Source: Haloterrigena salifodinae (GTDB taxonomy: Archaea; Halobacteriota; Halobacteria; Halobacteriales; Natrialbaceae). Taken from it: DNA of 64,000 bases. The notes under the pieces were generated by a model that was not told where the DNA came from, made no database searches, and saw only the letters and a list, made by a program, of their open reading frames with translations. Position 1 is the stretch's first letter. Each line of letters starts with the position of its first letter. Below, in pieces: positions 35,557 to 43,462 of this stretch. A program made the position numbers and the translations under genes. The stretch is taken from assembly GCF_003977755.1 (NCBI RefSeq), contig NZ_RQWN01000002.1, positions 558,001-622,000 on the forward strand, given 5' to 3'.

Positions 35557-37656
35557 ATGTCGGTATCGACCTTCCTGCCGCTCGCGCTCGCCGCGCTCTG
35601 CTGTGCGCCCATCCTCGCGGCCAGATACCACGACGGCGTCGACCGGCGGTTGACGCGGGCCGCGATCGGGCTCTTCGGCGGGTACGTCGACGAGTTCCGC
35701 GACGAACATCCCGACAGGCAGGCGGCGCTGCGAGCTGCCCACGTGCCGGTGACCTACCGCGAGTACGGCGCAACGACGGTCTGCTACGCCGGCCTCTTTG
35801 CGATCCTCGGCTCGGTGCTCGGCATCTACGTCATTTGGGGCCTGTTGCTCGTGCTCTCGGTCGATCCCGAGACGCTCCGGGCGGCGTTGCCGAGCGCCCT
35901 CGCGTTCCTCGCGAACCTCGGTGGCGTGCCCTCGCTGTCGCTCGTCGAACTGTTCGGACTGTTGCTCGCCTCCTGTCTCACGCTCGGCGCGGTCGTCGGC
36001 GGCGGCGCGTACTGGTTCCGGTGGTGGTACCCGCGCTACGTCGCCGACGAGCGCGCCCGGCGGATCGAGACGGCGCTGCCCTCGACTGTCGCCTTCCTCT
36101 ACGCCCTCTCTCGCAGCGGGATGGCGTTTCCGAAGGCGATCCGCATCGTCGCCGCCCACGAGGCGACCTACGGCGAGGCCGCCGCGGAGTTCGACGTCGC
36201 GGTCCGCAACATGGACACCTTCGGCGTCGACGTGGTCTCCGCCCTCCAAACGATGGGCCGACGCTCGCCGAGCCCCCAGTTTCGCGAGTTCAGCGAGAAT
36301 CTGGTCAGCGTCCTCCAGAGCGGCCACAGCCTCTCTGATTTCCTCGAACGCCAGTATCACGACTACCAGGAGGAAGCCGAGTCCCAGCAGGAACGGACCC
36401 TCGGACTGCTCTCGACGCTCGCCGAAGCCTACGTGACGGTGCTGGTCGCGGGTCCGCTCTTTCTCATCACGATCCTCGTCGTCATCGGGATCGCCGTCGG
36501 CGACACGCTCGAGCCGCTGCGGGCGCTGATCTACTTTATCCTGCCCGTCGGCAACCTCGCGTTCGTGATCTACCTGAGCGTCGTCACCGACAAACTGACC
36601 CCCGGCTCGGCGGCGAGCGACGCGGGCGAGGCTCCGTCGTCGGACCTCCCGGGAGATATCGCGCGTGAGGCGCGGCCCGACGGTGGGTCCGTCGATAGCG
36701 GCGCCGTCGGTGCCGACACCCACCCGAACGACGAACGCCTCCGGTACTACCGGCGGCTCCGCGGCCTGCGCGAGCGATTCGGGGATCCGGTTCGGACGCT
36801 GCTCGAGCGCCCGGCGCTCTCGCTCGCGATCACCGTTCCGGTCGCCCTCGCGGGCGTACTGTGGCGGTTCCCGGCGGCGCTCGAGGGGGGGTTCGACGTC
36901 GCGGCGATCGACGACGCGATCGCGGCGGGGCTGCTGGTCGTCCTGACCGGCTTCGCGATCTGTTACGAGGGCCACCGGCGCCGGATCGACGCGGTCGAGG
37001 CGGCCGTCCCGGATCTGCTCGACCGACTCGCGAGCGTCAACGAAGCCGGCATGTCGTTGGTCTCGGCGGTCGACCACGTCCGCGGCTCGGAGTTGGGACC
37101 GCTCGGCGCCGAACTCGATCGCGTCTGGGCGGACGTCCAGTGGGGCGCCGACCTCCAGACCGCGTTCGCCCGACTCGAGCGGCGGGTGCGGACCCGGACG
37201 ACCGCCCGCGTCGTGACCCTGCTCACCGAGGCGATGACCGCGAGCGGGAACCTCGCGACTGTCCTCCGGATCGCTGCCCGACAGGCCGCGGCCGACCGGC
37301 GACTCGAGCGCGAGCGCAAACAGGCGATGGTCGAGTACACCATCGTCGTCTACGTCTCGTACCTGGTCTTCCTGTTTATCATCGCGGTGCTCGCGGCGTC
37401 TTTGCTGCCGAACCTGCCCGCGGCGGGAGCCGATACCGCGACCGCAACCGGATCCACCGCGGTCGACGGACTCGGCGGCTTCTCGGACTCCGATCGGGCG
37501 ACCTACGACACGCTGTTCTACCACGCGACGCTCGTTCAGGGGCTGCTCTCGGGGCTGATCGCCGGCCAGTTGAGCACGGGGGATATCCGCGGCGGCGCGA
37601 AACACGCGGCGGTCATGGTCGGCCTCTCGATCCTCCTCTTCGCCGTCGTGGTCTGA
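35557..37656 (+). CDS. pilC: Type IV pilus membrane platform protein, PilC/TadC-like
   Basis: 699 residues with two T2SSF domains, each a helical bundle before a membrane-helix pair: the first ETALPSTVAFLYALSRSGMA to AYVTVLVAGPLFLITILVVI, the second EAAVPDLLDRLASVNEAGMS to YTIVVYVSYLVFLFIIAVLA. In all about nine membrane helices. It anchors the PilB ATPase and the growing filament. The linker around residues 350-380 is acidic and disordered. Co-directional with pilB, six bases after its stop, so one transcript. Confidence 0.92.
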   Translation: MSVSTFLPLALAALCCAPILAARYHDGVDRRLTRAAIGLFGGYVDEFRDEHPDRQAALRAAHVPVTYREYGATTVCYAGLFAILGSVLGIYVIWGLLLVLSVDPETLRAALPSALAFLANLGGVPSLSLVELFGLLLASCLTLGAVVGGGAYWFRWWYPRYVADERARRIETALPSTVAFLYALSRSGMAFPKAIRIVAAHEATYGEAAAEFDVAVRNMDTFGVDVVSALQTMGRRSPSPQFREFSENLVSVLQSGHSLSDFLERQYHDYQEEAESQQERTLGLLSTLAEAYVTVLVAGPLFLITILVVIGIAVGDTLEPLRALIYFILPVGNLAFVIYLSVVTDKLTPGSAASDAGEAPSSDLPGDIAREARPDGGSVDSGAVGADTHPNDERLRYYRRLRGLRERFGDPVRTLLERPALSLAITVPVALAGVLWRFPAALEGGFDVAAIDDAIAAGLLVVLTGFAICYEGHRRRIDAVEAAVPDLLDRLASVNEAGMSLVSAVDHVRGSELGPLGAELDRVWADVQWGADLQTAFARLERRVRTRTTARVVTLLTEAMTASGNLATVLRIAARQAAADRRLERERKQAMVEYTIVVYVSYLVFLFIIAVLAASLLPNLPAAGADTATATGSTAVDGLGGFSDSDRATYDTLFYHATLVQGLLSGLIAGQLSTGDIRGGAKHAAVMVGLSILLFAVVV

Positions 37657-37765
37657 CATTCCGGCGAGACGGATGTCTTGCCGACCTCGCGGAAGCCTGC
37701 TCCCGCTCAACGGCAGTCTCTTCGGATCCATCCGCGGTGGCCAGATCAGCCAACCGGCACGGGTA

Positions 37766-37878
37766 GGACTGAACGGGGCGATCCGCTGGCGCCGGCGCCA
37801 GTGGATCGGGGCTTTCGGTGGGACTGAACGGGGCAGACACACTCGACCGCTCAGGATCGAGCGTGTCTGGGGCTTTCG
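37766..37878. repeat. Two-unit tandem repeat carrying two different palindromes
   Basis: Unit 1 is GGACTGAACGGGGC (37766-37779), palindrome (37780-37807), GGGGCTTTCG (37808-37817). Unit 2 has the same edges at 37821-37834 and 37869-37878 around a different palindrome (37835-37868). Palindrome 1 has two 14-base arms (GATCCGCTGGCGCC) with one G-T mismatch and no loop. Palindrome 2 has 12-base arms (AGACACACTCGA) with one mismatch and a 10-base loop. Each palindrome is flanked by direct GGGGC copies. Taken without the palindromes, the edges form a tandem repeat of about 22 bases. It lies in the gap between pilC and a methyltransferase gene. Confidence 0.85.
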
Positions 37879-37920
37879 CGTTGCGAACGGTTTTTGCGCA
37901 TTCCCCGACGAACACCGACG

Positions 37921-38631
37921 ATGGCCGAGGAGCAGGAGTCCGACCTCGAGGACGACGCACAGCGACGGGCCGCCGTCCGCGACACCTACGATCGCATCGC
38001 CGACCACTTCGCGTCCACGCGAGAGTACGCCTGGCCCGAAGTCGAGGCGTTCGTCGAGAAAGTGGCCGACGACCTCGAGACCGACGGGAACGAGTCCGCG
38101 GTCGGCCTCGACCTCGGCTGTGGCAACTGTCGGCACGCCGAACTGCTGGCCGACCACTGCAGGACTGTCGTCGGCCTCGACGCCAGTCGGGGGCTCCTCG
38201 AGACCGGGCGCGAACGCGCCCTCGAGCGCGGGTTCGCGGTCGCGCTCTGCCAGGGCGACGCCGGACGGCTGCCGTTGGCCGACGACAGCGTCGACGTCGC
38301 GGTCTACGTCGCGACGCTGCATCACCTGCCGACCCGGCGCGCTCGACGCGACAGCCTCGACGAACTCGCGCGAGTCCTCGCGCCGGGGGGCCGCGCCCTC
38401 GTCAGCGCGTGGTCGACCGCCCACGATCGCTTCGACGCCGACGAGGGATTCGACACCACCGTCGAGTGGACCCTCCCCGGCGGCGAGACCGTCGATCGCT
38501 TCTACCACATCTACGCGCCCGACGAGTTCGAGGCCGCCCTCGAGGCCAGCGCGCTCGAGGTCGTCACCTGGGAACTCTCGAACGGGAACTGTTACGCGAC
38601 GGTGACCGCAGCAGGCGGCGAACCGCAGTAA
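37921..38631 (+). CDS. Class I methyltransferase, Trm9-like
   Basis: 236 residues with the Rossmann motif I GLDLGCGNCRHAELLADHC, motif II VVGLDASRGLLETGRERA, and post-I/IV regions DSVDVAVYVATLHHLPTRRA and GGRALVSAWS. These match the Trm9/ALKBH8 family that methylates the carboxymethyl group of wobble-uridine modifications. Such enzymes need Trm112, and a Trm112-like gene is at 25254 in this window. The start at 37921 gives an acidic N-terminus; an upstream in-frame ATG lies too close to the repeat array. Confidence 0.85.
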   Translation: MAEEQESDLEDDAQRRAAVRDTYDRIADHFASTREYAWPEVEAFVEKVADDLETDGNESAVGLDLGCGNCRHAELLADHCRTVVGLDASRGLLETGRERALERGFAVALCQGDAGRLPLADDSVDVAVYVATLHHLPTRRARRDSLDELARVLAPGGRALVSAWSTAHDRFDADEGFDTTVEWTLPGGETVDRFYHIYAPDEFEAALEASALEVVTWELSNGNCYATVTAAGGEPQ

Positions 38632-40187: not shown

Positions 40188-40225
40188 TAATGTGGACTGA
40201 ATTTCCAGACGATAACGACTGTCAT

Positions 40226-43200
40226 ATGAATTTACCAGAACGAATCTTCTCAGTCGGGGGTGCAGGAAAGCAAATCGCGTTGGAGCTACTCGAATCGGAG
40301 TGGGTCCTTCGCGAGATTCTGCAGCCACGACGGAATCCGCAGTCCGTGCGCGTAACAATTCTTGATACGGCCGAAGAAGAGGAGAACTCGGACCGAGAGC
40401 GAATCGCCGATATTCGCGAACGGGTCGCGACGCTGAAATCGGAGCTTCGGGAGACCGGAACCGGTCGTCCCGGCGACATCTCGATCGAGTACAAGATGAT
40501 CACCCGGAACATCCAACTCAACGACCAGAACGATCTGATCGGTGAGACCGCGGTGCCGCGGATCGCGGCCGGGAACGGGATGGACGAAAACGACTGGTGG
40601 GTCGAGGAACAGCACATCAACGAGAACCTCGACTTCGCGACCGGCGTCGTCCGGAAACGAGGGCTCGGAAAGGCCATGTACTACAAGGCCTACGCGGAGG
40701 ACGACGAACTGTCGACCTACATCGACCTCCCGGACAAGGGGAAGGTCGCCGTTCTCGCCGGACTCGGCGGCGGCACCGGCTCCGGGATCGTCATCGATCT
40801 GGCGCGTCACCTCCAGAAGAAACAGCGAACCGCGGAGATCACGCTGTTCGGCATCCTCCCGAACCACACCGAGGGGATCCGAGAGAACGCAAACGCCTTC
40901 GCCGCCCTCTCGGAACTCGAGTACCTCAACCTGATCGACGAACCCGCGTTCAAGGATCGCGTCCTCCTGCCGATCGATCCGACGGGCTTCGACGGCAAGG
41001 GCGGGAACAAGATCCAGAACGGGCAGCTGTTACAGGAGTTCGACGAAGCGATCGTCTACCTGATCGCCGCCTACTACAATACCGTCGGCACCGAGGACCC
41101 GTTCGCGGACTCGCCGACGTACGCGCCGTTCACGATCGGGATCCCCCAGATCCTCCGGTACAACGTCGAAGCGATCAACGAGGGACGGACCGCCCTTCGC
41201 GAGATCCTCTCGGCCAAGGAGGAAGCCGTGCAGGCCGAACGAGACATCTACACGCAGATCGAACGGTTCCTCGACAACCACTACGACGGCCCCAGCGGCG
41301 AGGGCCTCCGGGACCTCGACCGCGCGGACTTGAACGAGCGCTTCGACGAACTCCGATCGCTCCTCGACTTCGAACTGTTCAACGAACTCGAGTACGAGTC
41401 GGTCTCGATCTTCTCGGAGATCATCTCGGACGCCGAAAAGGAAAGCGAGGATATCTCCGAGCGGATCGACATCATCTCGGGGTCGCTCCGGGCCGTCGAT
41501 ACCGCCGGTCAGCAGGCCGGGCGGTTCGTCGACAACATCGACGAGAACCTCGCCGAAGCGCTCGAAGCGGACCTGAAGGCGATCGTCCAGCGACACCGAC
41601 TGCTCGTCCAGAAGCAGTCGATCGACGACAGCCGCGTCAGAGACGCCGTCGAGTACCTCATTAACAACGACGACGGCAGCGGCAACCCCGGTGTGAAACT
41701 CAACCGCCTCGAGACGCAGCTCTCCGATATTTCCGACCAGCGCGCCCGACTCGAGGACGAACTCGAGGAAACCGTCGAGGAACTCGAGCGACTCGAAGCG
41801 GAGCAGGCCGAGGAGATCGACCGGAAGGTTCGCGACTGGGAACGCGACGTGACCCAGACGCTCGAGCAGTACCAGGCGGTCGACGTCGAGGCCATCCGCA
41901 GCGACCTCTCGGCGCTGACGCGCGAACTCGAGCAGTTCGTCTCGGAGACCGTCAACGCTCGAAACGACACCGACGTCGAGCAGGTCTCAACCCAGGAGAT
42001 AACCCAGCAACTCGACGGTATCGAAACCGAACTCGACCGCGTTGGGATCGACTTCCACGAACAGCGCAGCGACATCGAAACGTCGATAGCGGCCCTCAAG
42101 GAGACGCGGAAGGCGGCCTTGACGATGAACACCGAGGCGGGAACCATCGAAAAGCTCACGCCGTGGTCCGGAAAGACCGAGCAGGCGAAGGAGGAGGCCC
42201 ACCGCAACTTCCGCGTCCAGAAGAACAAGCTCGACGAGCGGGGCGTGTTCAGCGTCGGTCCGCCGGGTTCGTCGTTCAGCGCGGAGGTCGAGTACAACGA
42301 CGGCGCGCTCCTCGACGAACTGCAGGCGCGAACGCGCGAACTCGAGGACGAAATCGTCAACGAACTCGCCCACCGACTCGAGTCGTTCGGCGCGGACCGC
42401 CGCCGCGAGATCGAATCGGAACTCGATCATGGCGCCGACTTCGGTCGCCTCCGGGAGATCGCTCGCGAGGCGTTCAAAGCCGAAATCGGCGGCACCGACG
42501 ACGTTCGAGAACGCAAGGCGGATCTCGAGGACGAACTCGAGGAACTCGAGCAGGGGTACGAGACCTACGAGGCGACGGTTGACCTCTTCGAGGAACTCAA
42601 CCAGCGCCGCGAGGCGTACGCGAACCGCCTCGCCGAGTTCAACCGGAAACGCAACGAGTACGACGCGGAAACGTCGACCCGCTCGGTCGCGACCGAGCGC
42701 GACGAGTCGGTGTACGTCAAGAACATCAAGCCGAACGACGTCTTCCGGGCGACCGGCGACGAGGGGATCGGCGACAGCGATCTGTTTAACAGCCGCGAGG
42801 AGAACCAGCGGGTCCACAGCTCCCTCGAGGATCTCGTCGAGAACGTCTTCAACGAACAGTACTCCGGGATCAAGAAGCGGAGCTTCAGCAAGGGCCGACA
42901 GCGGTACAACGATATCAAGGTCCGCGTCGGCGTGTTGAGCCAGGCGGTCCATCAGATCGATCCGGACGCCCTCGACTTCGAGAACCAGTTCAACAGCGCG
43001 TTCGATCTCGGTGCGAGCGGCAACCGCGTCGAGAACCCGTACACGACCTGGCAGCACGATATCGGCGACAGCTGGGACATCGGCGTGAGCGCCTTTATCG
43101 ACGGCATCTTCCTCGACAACCTGCGGAAGATGGTTCAGGCCGACGGCTACCGCTCCGGCTACGAGAAGCGTTGGTCCGAACTGGGTGACGACATCCTCAT

Positions 43201-43462
43201 CCACCACAACCACGGGCTCGAGGAGGGCTACTACGTCCGACGGAACGAGATGCTCAACATGGAGAGCGACGACGACGTCGGCTTCTATCTCCAGGACGAA
43301 CCCGACATCGTTCAGGGGCTGTTGGACGAGTACGTCGACGTCGTGTCCGTGGCTGATGAGGTGGACGGCGACGACGGCACCGATACCGATACCGATACCG
43401 ATACCGACGAACGGACGACTGCAGACGATCAGACCTACGAGTTCAGCGGTGGAGTGCAATGA
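40226..43462 (+). CDS. Divergent tubulin/FtsZ-like protein with long coiled coils
   Basis: 1078 residues. The N-terminal domain carries the nucleotide-binding pattern of the tubulin superfamily: SVGGAGKQIA at 9-18 and the tubulin signature GGGTGSG at 181-187, then ITLFGILPNHTEGIRENANA and IPQILRYNVEAINEGRTALR as in the T6 region. It fits the tubulin-like family found outside cell division (Tubulin_2-like). Long helices follow, with coiled coils at about 490-630 and 770-820, then a folded C-terminal domain and an Asp/Thr-rich tail. It has no membrane segment. ATGA overlap with the next gene shows tight coupling. Unlike FtsZ or CetZ it has a huge extension. The role is inferred to be polymer-based, with the membrane GTPase as partner. 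Confidence 0.8.
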   Translation: MNLPERIFSVGGAGKQIALELLESEWVLREILQPRRNPQSVRVTILDTAEEEENSDRERIADIRERVATLKSELRETGTGRPGDISIEYKMITRNIQLNDQNDLIGETAVPRIAAGNGMDENDWWVEEQHINENLDFATGVVRKRGLGKAMYYKAYAEDDELSTYIDLPDKGKVAVLAGLGGGTGSGIVIDLARHLQKKQRTAEITLFGILPNHTEGIRENANAFAALSELEYLNLIDEPAFKDRVLLPIDPTGFDGKGGNKIQNGQLLQEFDEAIVYLIAAYYNTVGTEDPFADSPTYAPFTIGIPQILRYNVEAINEGRTALREILSAKEEAVQAERDIYTQIERFLDNHYDGPSGEGLRDLDRADLNERFDELRSLLDFELFNELEYESVSIFSEIISDAEKESEDISERIDIISGSLRAVDTAGQQAGRFVDNIDENLAEALEADLKAIVQRHRLLVQKQSIDDSRVRDAVEYLINNDDGSGNPGVKLNRLETQLSDISDQRARLEDELEETVEELERLEAEQAEEIDRKVRDWERDVTQTLEQYQAVDVEAIRSDLSALTRELEQFVSETVNARNDTDVEQVSTQEITQQLDGIETELDRVGIDFHEQRSDIETSIAALKETRKAALTMNTEAGTIEKLTPWSGKTEQAKEEAHRNFRVQKNKLDERGVFSVGPPGSSFSAEVEYNDGALLDELQARTRELEDEIVNELAHRLESFGADRRREIESELDHGADFGRLREIAREAFKAEIGGTDDVRERKADLEDELEELEQGYETYEATVDLFEELNQRREAYANRLAEFNRKRNEYDAETSTRSVATERDESVYVKNIKPNDVFRATGDEGIGDSDLFNSREENQRVHSSLEDLVENVFNEQYSGIKKRSFSKGRQRYNDIKVRVGVLSQAVHQIDPDALDFENQFNSAFDLGASGNRVENPYTTWQHDIGDSWDIGVSAFIDGIFLDNLRKMVQADGYRSGYEKRWSELGDDILIHHNHGLEEGYYVRRNEMLNMESDDDVGFYLQDEPDIVQGLLDEYVDVVSVADEVDGDDGTDTDTDTDTDERTTADDQTYEFSGGVQ
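43381..43404 (+). repeat. Hexanucleotide microsatellite inside the tubulin-like gene
   Basis: Four perfect CGATAC units encode the DTDTDTDT stretch near the C-terminus. In-frame, so copy change would only alter the tail length. Confidence 0.8.

Follow-up and report, generated by a model that had tools for sequence, protein, structure and literature searches.

What kind of genetic element consists of two adjacent units that share identical edges and enclose different, nearly perfect palindromes? The question is raised by an intergenic region of Haloterrigena salifodinae within the 64,000-nucleotide stretch of DNA that we analysed as a whole and call the window. An earlier note on this DNA had described the two units, and we verified them at 37766-37877, between a PilC-like gene and a methyltransferase gene; a repeat search joined both through an 18-nt direct repeat at 94% identity. 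The parts of the locus are as follows:

35557-37656, + strand: upstream gene, T2SSF / archaeal PilC-like (Pfam PF00482), preceded by a PilB3-like gene
37736-37755, + strand: dyad GGTGGCCAGATCAGCCAACC of the left module (relatives have the consensus CCGGYTGGTCAACCGG)
37766-37779, + strand: left edge of unit 1, GGACTGAACGGGGC (family consensus GGGYGGGACTGAAAGGGGC; A-to-C change in GAAAG)
37780-37807, + strand: hairpin body of unit 1, 28-nt palindrome GATCCGCTGGCGCC/GGCGCCAGTGGATC
37808-37816, + strand: right edge of unit 1, GGGGCTTTC
37817-37820: spacer GGTG separating units 1 and 2
37821-37834, + strand: left edge of unit 2, GGACTGAACGGGGC
37835-37868, + strand: hairpin body of unit 2, 34-nt palindrome
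37869-37877, + strand: right edge of unit 2, GGGGCTTTC, its end 43 bp upstream of the start codon of the methyltransferase
37880-37899, + strand: downstream promoter region GTTGCGAACGGTTTTTGCGC, outside the element, which abuts it
37921-38631, + strand: downstream gene, class I SAM-dependent methyltransferase (Pfam PF08241)

Orthologues of the methyltransferase are present in 124 of the 125 family genomes and, as the earlier note had held, no neighbouring protein gene explains the palindromes. The promoter downstream of the window element (GTTGCGAACGSTTTTTGCGC) is nearly invariant across 30 orthologues. The RNA fold of 37740-37890 gave a z of -2.6, with 2 of 200 shuffles equally good. The window copies carry GAACG in place of GAAAG, which implies a weaker base helix. 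The body of unit 1 is conserved in three congeners, and G026 is altered on both arms (GAGCC/GGCTC). Downstream of the locus, at 40190-43462 of the window, lies a gene for a large tubulin-like protein (Pfam Tubulin_2).

Pattern searches showed that the two window units are short-form copies of a haloarchaeal hairpin-repeat family present in more than half of the genomes searched. The source genome contains the left edge 13 times with at most one mismatch (reversed pattern, 0) and seven tight, exact two-edge copies in three intergenic tandem groups (reversed-pattern control, 0), as well as several further copies with longer inserts. The tight two-edge pattern was found in 34 of the 125 family genomes, with 0 control matches, and the consensus edge GGACTGAAAGGGGC in 214 of the 391 Halobacteria genomes searched, with about 4 control matches in total. 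The right edge GGGGCTTTC lay within 450 bp in 257 of 285 distinct collected left-edge copies, a count that, as all family counts here, includes related sequences. The edges are neither unique in the genome nor the flanks of a simple terminator; they recur, in the genome and in relatives, around different palindromes. The weaker palindrome that had been noticed at 37736-37755 proved to be real and is part of the left module of the element, a module of much lower conservation: its motif occurs in 89 of 285 left flanks, compared with about 7 in shuffled flanks. Rfam covariance models yielded only sub-threshold matches to unrelated families and none at the gathering score. The edge sequence in a haloarchaeal context was not found in the open papers searched, and the main text of RepRanger (PMC12306157) does not mention haloarchaea by name. 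Sequence similar to the long form occurs in 31 plasmid records, haloarchaeal among the matches listed, where it is nearly always unannotated; the carriers include Halobaculum, Natrinema and Haloarcula.

Units occur singly, in twos or threes, or as divergent pairs, dispersed over the genome, and their number varies within Haloarcula from 2 to 83, the latter, in one genome, being the maximum for GGACTGAAAGGGGC. Consecutive hairpins of tandem copies are separated by a constant 27-28 nt, a regularity that would suit a CRISPR-like repeat-spacer array with hairpins as spacers, one of the two readings first proposed. However, at most three units were seen together, copies are scattered genome-wide, nearly all inserts of at least 20 nt are self-complementary, viral contigs gave only chance-like edge matches and a phage search with one long form returned no match, so that we regard the chance of such an array as negligible. 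A viral source was rejected: in viral contigs the 15-mer edge appeared only in unrelated contexts and without the right edge. In G348 (L139, L158-L186), 56 of 83 edges belong to divergent pairs placed back to back. Most of these pairs surround a centre of 26-34 bp that contains the dyad CCGGTTGGTCAACCGG, and another inverted repeat is made up by the outer ends, ACAGCCAGAAAGCCCC / GGGGCTTTCTGGCTGT.

The sequences enclosed by the edges fall into several classes: no insert (site GGACTGAAAGGGGCTTTC), inserts of 2-11 nt, simple hairpins of 23-35 nt, to which the window units belong, inserts of 71-101 nt and longer nested forms. Among the 226 inserts of at least 20 nt, 187 had 7-8 of the 8 terminal pairs in Watson-Crick register, compared with 4% in a control in which the 5′ end of one insert was set against the 3′ end of another. 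The same inserts comprise 139 distinct 5′ octamers. Clustering gave 62 stem families, in 46 of which at least one member forms 9-10 of 10 pairs. Because many different 5′ octamers coexist with kept complementarity, the stem sequence is free and the pairing is not. The conjecture that the arms are kept paired is thereby upheld across species. Inside the long inserts lies an inner core, of which there are at least two kinds. The consensus structure of the class A core (107 sequences) has 83% Watson-Crick cells, compared with 56% when shuffled, and combines some nearly invariant core pairs with covarying stems beside them; in G348, both edges lie at most 75 bp from 27 of 30 class A cores, and the remaining three have further nested hairpins. 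A second core class, CAGCGACCCCTATCC..GGATATGTCGCTGAGCGACC, was seen inside the same edges at L123, L126, L127, L133, L141 and L268. A nested double-hairpin module, TTCGAAAGACGC..GCGTCTTTCGTGATGACGAGAGAGC..GCTCTCTCGAACCACG with variants, sits in different stems at L049, L050, L122, L178 and L185 and contains TGATGA, like a C box.

A typical unit folds into a 7-bp helix and a 13-bp stem with a GGG/GGG loop between them. Where the GAAAG/CTTTC helix passes into the variable stem, G-GGG-C faces G-GGG-C, so that the GGG/GGG loop is bounded by a G-C pair and a C-G pair. A symmetric 3x3 loop of G residues with such closing pairs places the same 5-mer on both sides, so that target duplication is not needed, and the two GGGGC copies make better sense as opposite strands of a single symmetric internal loop. 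The GGGGC flanks described previously are therefore present, and it is the word duplication that does not hold, the 5-mer being the same nearly everywhere. This bears on the other initial reading, according to which hairpin mini-elements entered a pre-existing 18-bp site and duplicated GGGGC on insertion. Orthologous empty (GGACTGAAAGGGGCTTTC) and filled sites differ exactly at GGGGC, as insertion would have it, but a target-site duplication should be specific to each site, edges and hairpin co-occur in genus after genus, and where the unit is absent the edge is absent too. Deletion between direct repeats also accounts for the empty sites, and a precise slippage deletion of the hairpin would leave just such GGACTGAAAGGGGCTTTC sequences. 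The weakened insertion reading is, in our estimate, very improbable.

The stems also carry information about the strand. Non-pairs of the outer stem were G-T rather than A-C in a ratio of 48:14, which clustering reduced to 40:13 (p = 3e-4), in a set of sequences that are not wholly independent. As G-T on one strand is A-C on the other, the excess indicates that the sense strand is the one read, single-stranded, and the data fit RNA and DNA equally. Covarying stems with a one-strand wobble bias are the mark of a structured RNA, and they are also expected for single-stranded DNA. The family might consist of structured RNAs, non-coding or cis-regulatory, that are transcribed from the sense strand and whose stems evolve fast while base and core are conserved, in keeping with the wobble excess, the invariant class A core pairs next to covarying stems and the fold of the typical unit. 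Against this reading, no Rfam family matches, no conserved promoter-like sequence was found upstream of the elements, the orientation of long forms is near-random, and 2 to 83 copies within one genus with presence or absence at orthologous sites would be unusual for an RNA gene. We consider an RNA family rather unlikely.

Another reading is a quadruplex-duplex hybrid, in which the four G-tracts of GGGYGGG ACTGAAA GGGG C[hairpin]G GGG assemble around the hairpin as an any-sequence loop, favoured by the molar KCl of the cell, and act at promoters. Such a structure would account for the pairing of bodies of any sequence; GGGNGGG precedes 243 of 285 copies, and in Haloferax volcanii G4 motifs are enriched upstream of start sites (PMC12873603). 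About 15% of copies nevertheless break a tract (e.g. GGGTGGACTG), unit 1 of the window among them, and the hybrid leaves the conserved GAAAG/CTTTC and the class A core unexplained, which makes it decidedly improbable.

Only 2 of 257 copies overlapped a gene called by a heuristic, codon-trained caller, and 68 of 257 lie between divergent genes. Long forms are oriented nearly at random relative to genes; by contrast, the next gene is on the same strand in 40 of 42 short-form copies (orthologues counted). The right edge of the short form ends 39-47 bp before the start codon at six unrelated genes, namely the methyltransferase and, with names assigned by eye, an amidohydrolase, a MobB-like, a radical SAM-like, a MenB-like and an epimerase-like gene. 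With leaderless transcripts, as is usual in haloarchaea, this spacing places the short form immediately upstream of the BRE/TATA, so that a cis role at promoters is plausible on positional grounds. Intrinsic transcription terminators could also appear as intergenic hairpins, some of them between co-directional genes and with a short CTTTC tail. The copies between divergent genes, the orientation of the short form towards the start of the next gene, the near-random orientation of the long form and the absence of a T-tract leave terminators with a very slim probability.

Comparison between relatives revealed that elements are present or absent as whole units at orthologous sites, as a transposon or MITE would be, with boundaries placed only approximately. 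At the window locus, G000, G024, G026 and G027 have tandem short hairpins, G025 has a divergent pair of long class A units at the same place next to a methyltransferase that is 95% identical, and in G023 and G107 the promoter follows immediately on the pilC stop codon, the edge being absent along with the unit. At an npdG-like locus of Haloarcula, 5 of the 30 orthologues read carry the element and the rest do not; in two of these five the right module and its flank are tandemly repeated. At these loci (L338, L339), before the gene, the right module GGGGCTTTCTGGCTGT stands in 4-5 tandem copies, each with about 28 bp of a flank that differs between the species; in L339 the copies have started to diverge. 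A fresh insertion with a clean boundary was not found among the orthologous sites compared. Within orthologous hairpins, 257 cells had changed on both sides and were Watson-Crick in both species, compared with 166 one-sided changes, and loops were inverted as often as not (38 vs 32 comparisons, which are not independent). Clear inversions were seen in window hairpin 2, whose loop approximates the reverse complement of that in the G024, G026 and G027 orthologues, in amidohydrolase hairpin 2 (G000/G027) and in HTH hairpin 2 (G024/G027). Compensatory change together with loop inversion is the published signature of replication template switching (PMC8794818); the hairpins of that study likewise show one-step compensatory changes and loop inversions, but they were described for rRNA genes and not for a dispersed repeat.

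We propose that the family is a dispersed, REP-like, non-autonomous repeat that is defined by structure and whose stems are rewritten partly by template switching, an explanation to which we give an even chance. Each unit is one long sense-strand hairpin with a GAAAG/CTTTC base helix, a GGG/GGG loop and a complementary stem of free letters, to which long forms add the conserved inner core. The element would depend on functions supplied elsewhere and spread as REPs do; whatever recognises it would see a single strand, of RNA or of DNA, and respond to the base and the structure, not to the letters of the stem. Template switching at the replicating hairpin would account in part for both the upkeep and the flipping of the stems, and the short form may have been retained as a cis element just upstream of the BRE/TATA of leaderless genes. 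The wobble bias alone does not decide for a REP-like repeat, because plain transcribed RNA gives the same bias. As with REP/BIME, the haloarchaeal elements are short palindromes, dispersed and extragenic, in many copies as singles, tandems and inverted pairs, with copy numbers that vary between relatives. REP stems, however, share sequence and accompany a RAYT (Y1) gene; here the 139 octamers show no shared stem sequence, and no linked Y1 transposase was found. No mobilising enzyme emerged from the search: the 67-copy genome G146 has no Y1 transposase (PF01797), and elements flank none of the Y1 genes of six high-copy genomes, a single edge pair lying near one Y1 locus, so that Y1 linkage was rejected. 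Linkage to TnpB at L140 was discarded as well, the gene being, by eye, a zinc-ribbon cupin.

Two other systems resemble the proposed repeat. The SMRs, PATEs and MITEs of Haloquadratum are small haloarchaeal repeats that lack a transposase and contain palindromes or inverted repeats, SMRs being about 80-110 bp long with copies of one type commonly more than 95% identical, and PATEs being related to IS605 ends (PMC3119063). Unlike in SMRs, only edges and core are conserved in the present family and the inverted repeat differs between copies. A second likeness, of architecture only, is to integron attC sites. These have constant short base boxes, a spacer at the centre that stays unpaired and a terminal structure that varies and may have any sequence, and are read as one DNA strand; the box sequences differ from ours and no cassette array was seen. 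A bolder form of our proposal, which we offer tentatively and regard as rather doubtful, is that of a clade-wide element recognised by shape, with a constant base and a stem of any sequence, that would be read as a single strand by a haloarchaeal protein or machinery, move among intergenic regions and have its stems continually rewritten and flipped by template switching in replication.

All in all, over half of the sampled haloarchaeal genomes carry a family of palindromic repeats for which Rfam has no match, which nearly all plasmid records listed leave unannotated and which was not met in the literature searched for its edge. Since the bodies diverge freely while pairing is kept, the family offers a natural experiment on selection for structure versus template switching, and the same property suits a hunt for a protein that would read a hairpin by its shape. 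The swing in copy number from 2 to 83 within Haloarcula means that a mobilising factor may be searched for by comparison of strains.
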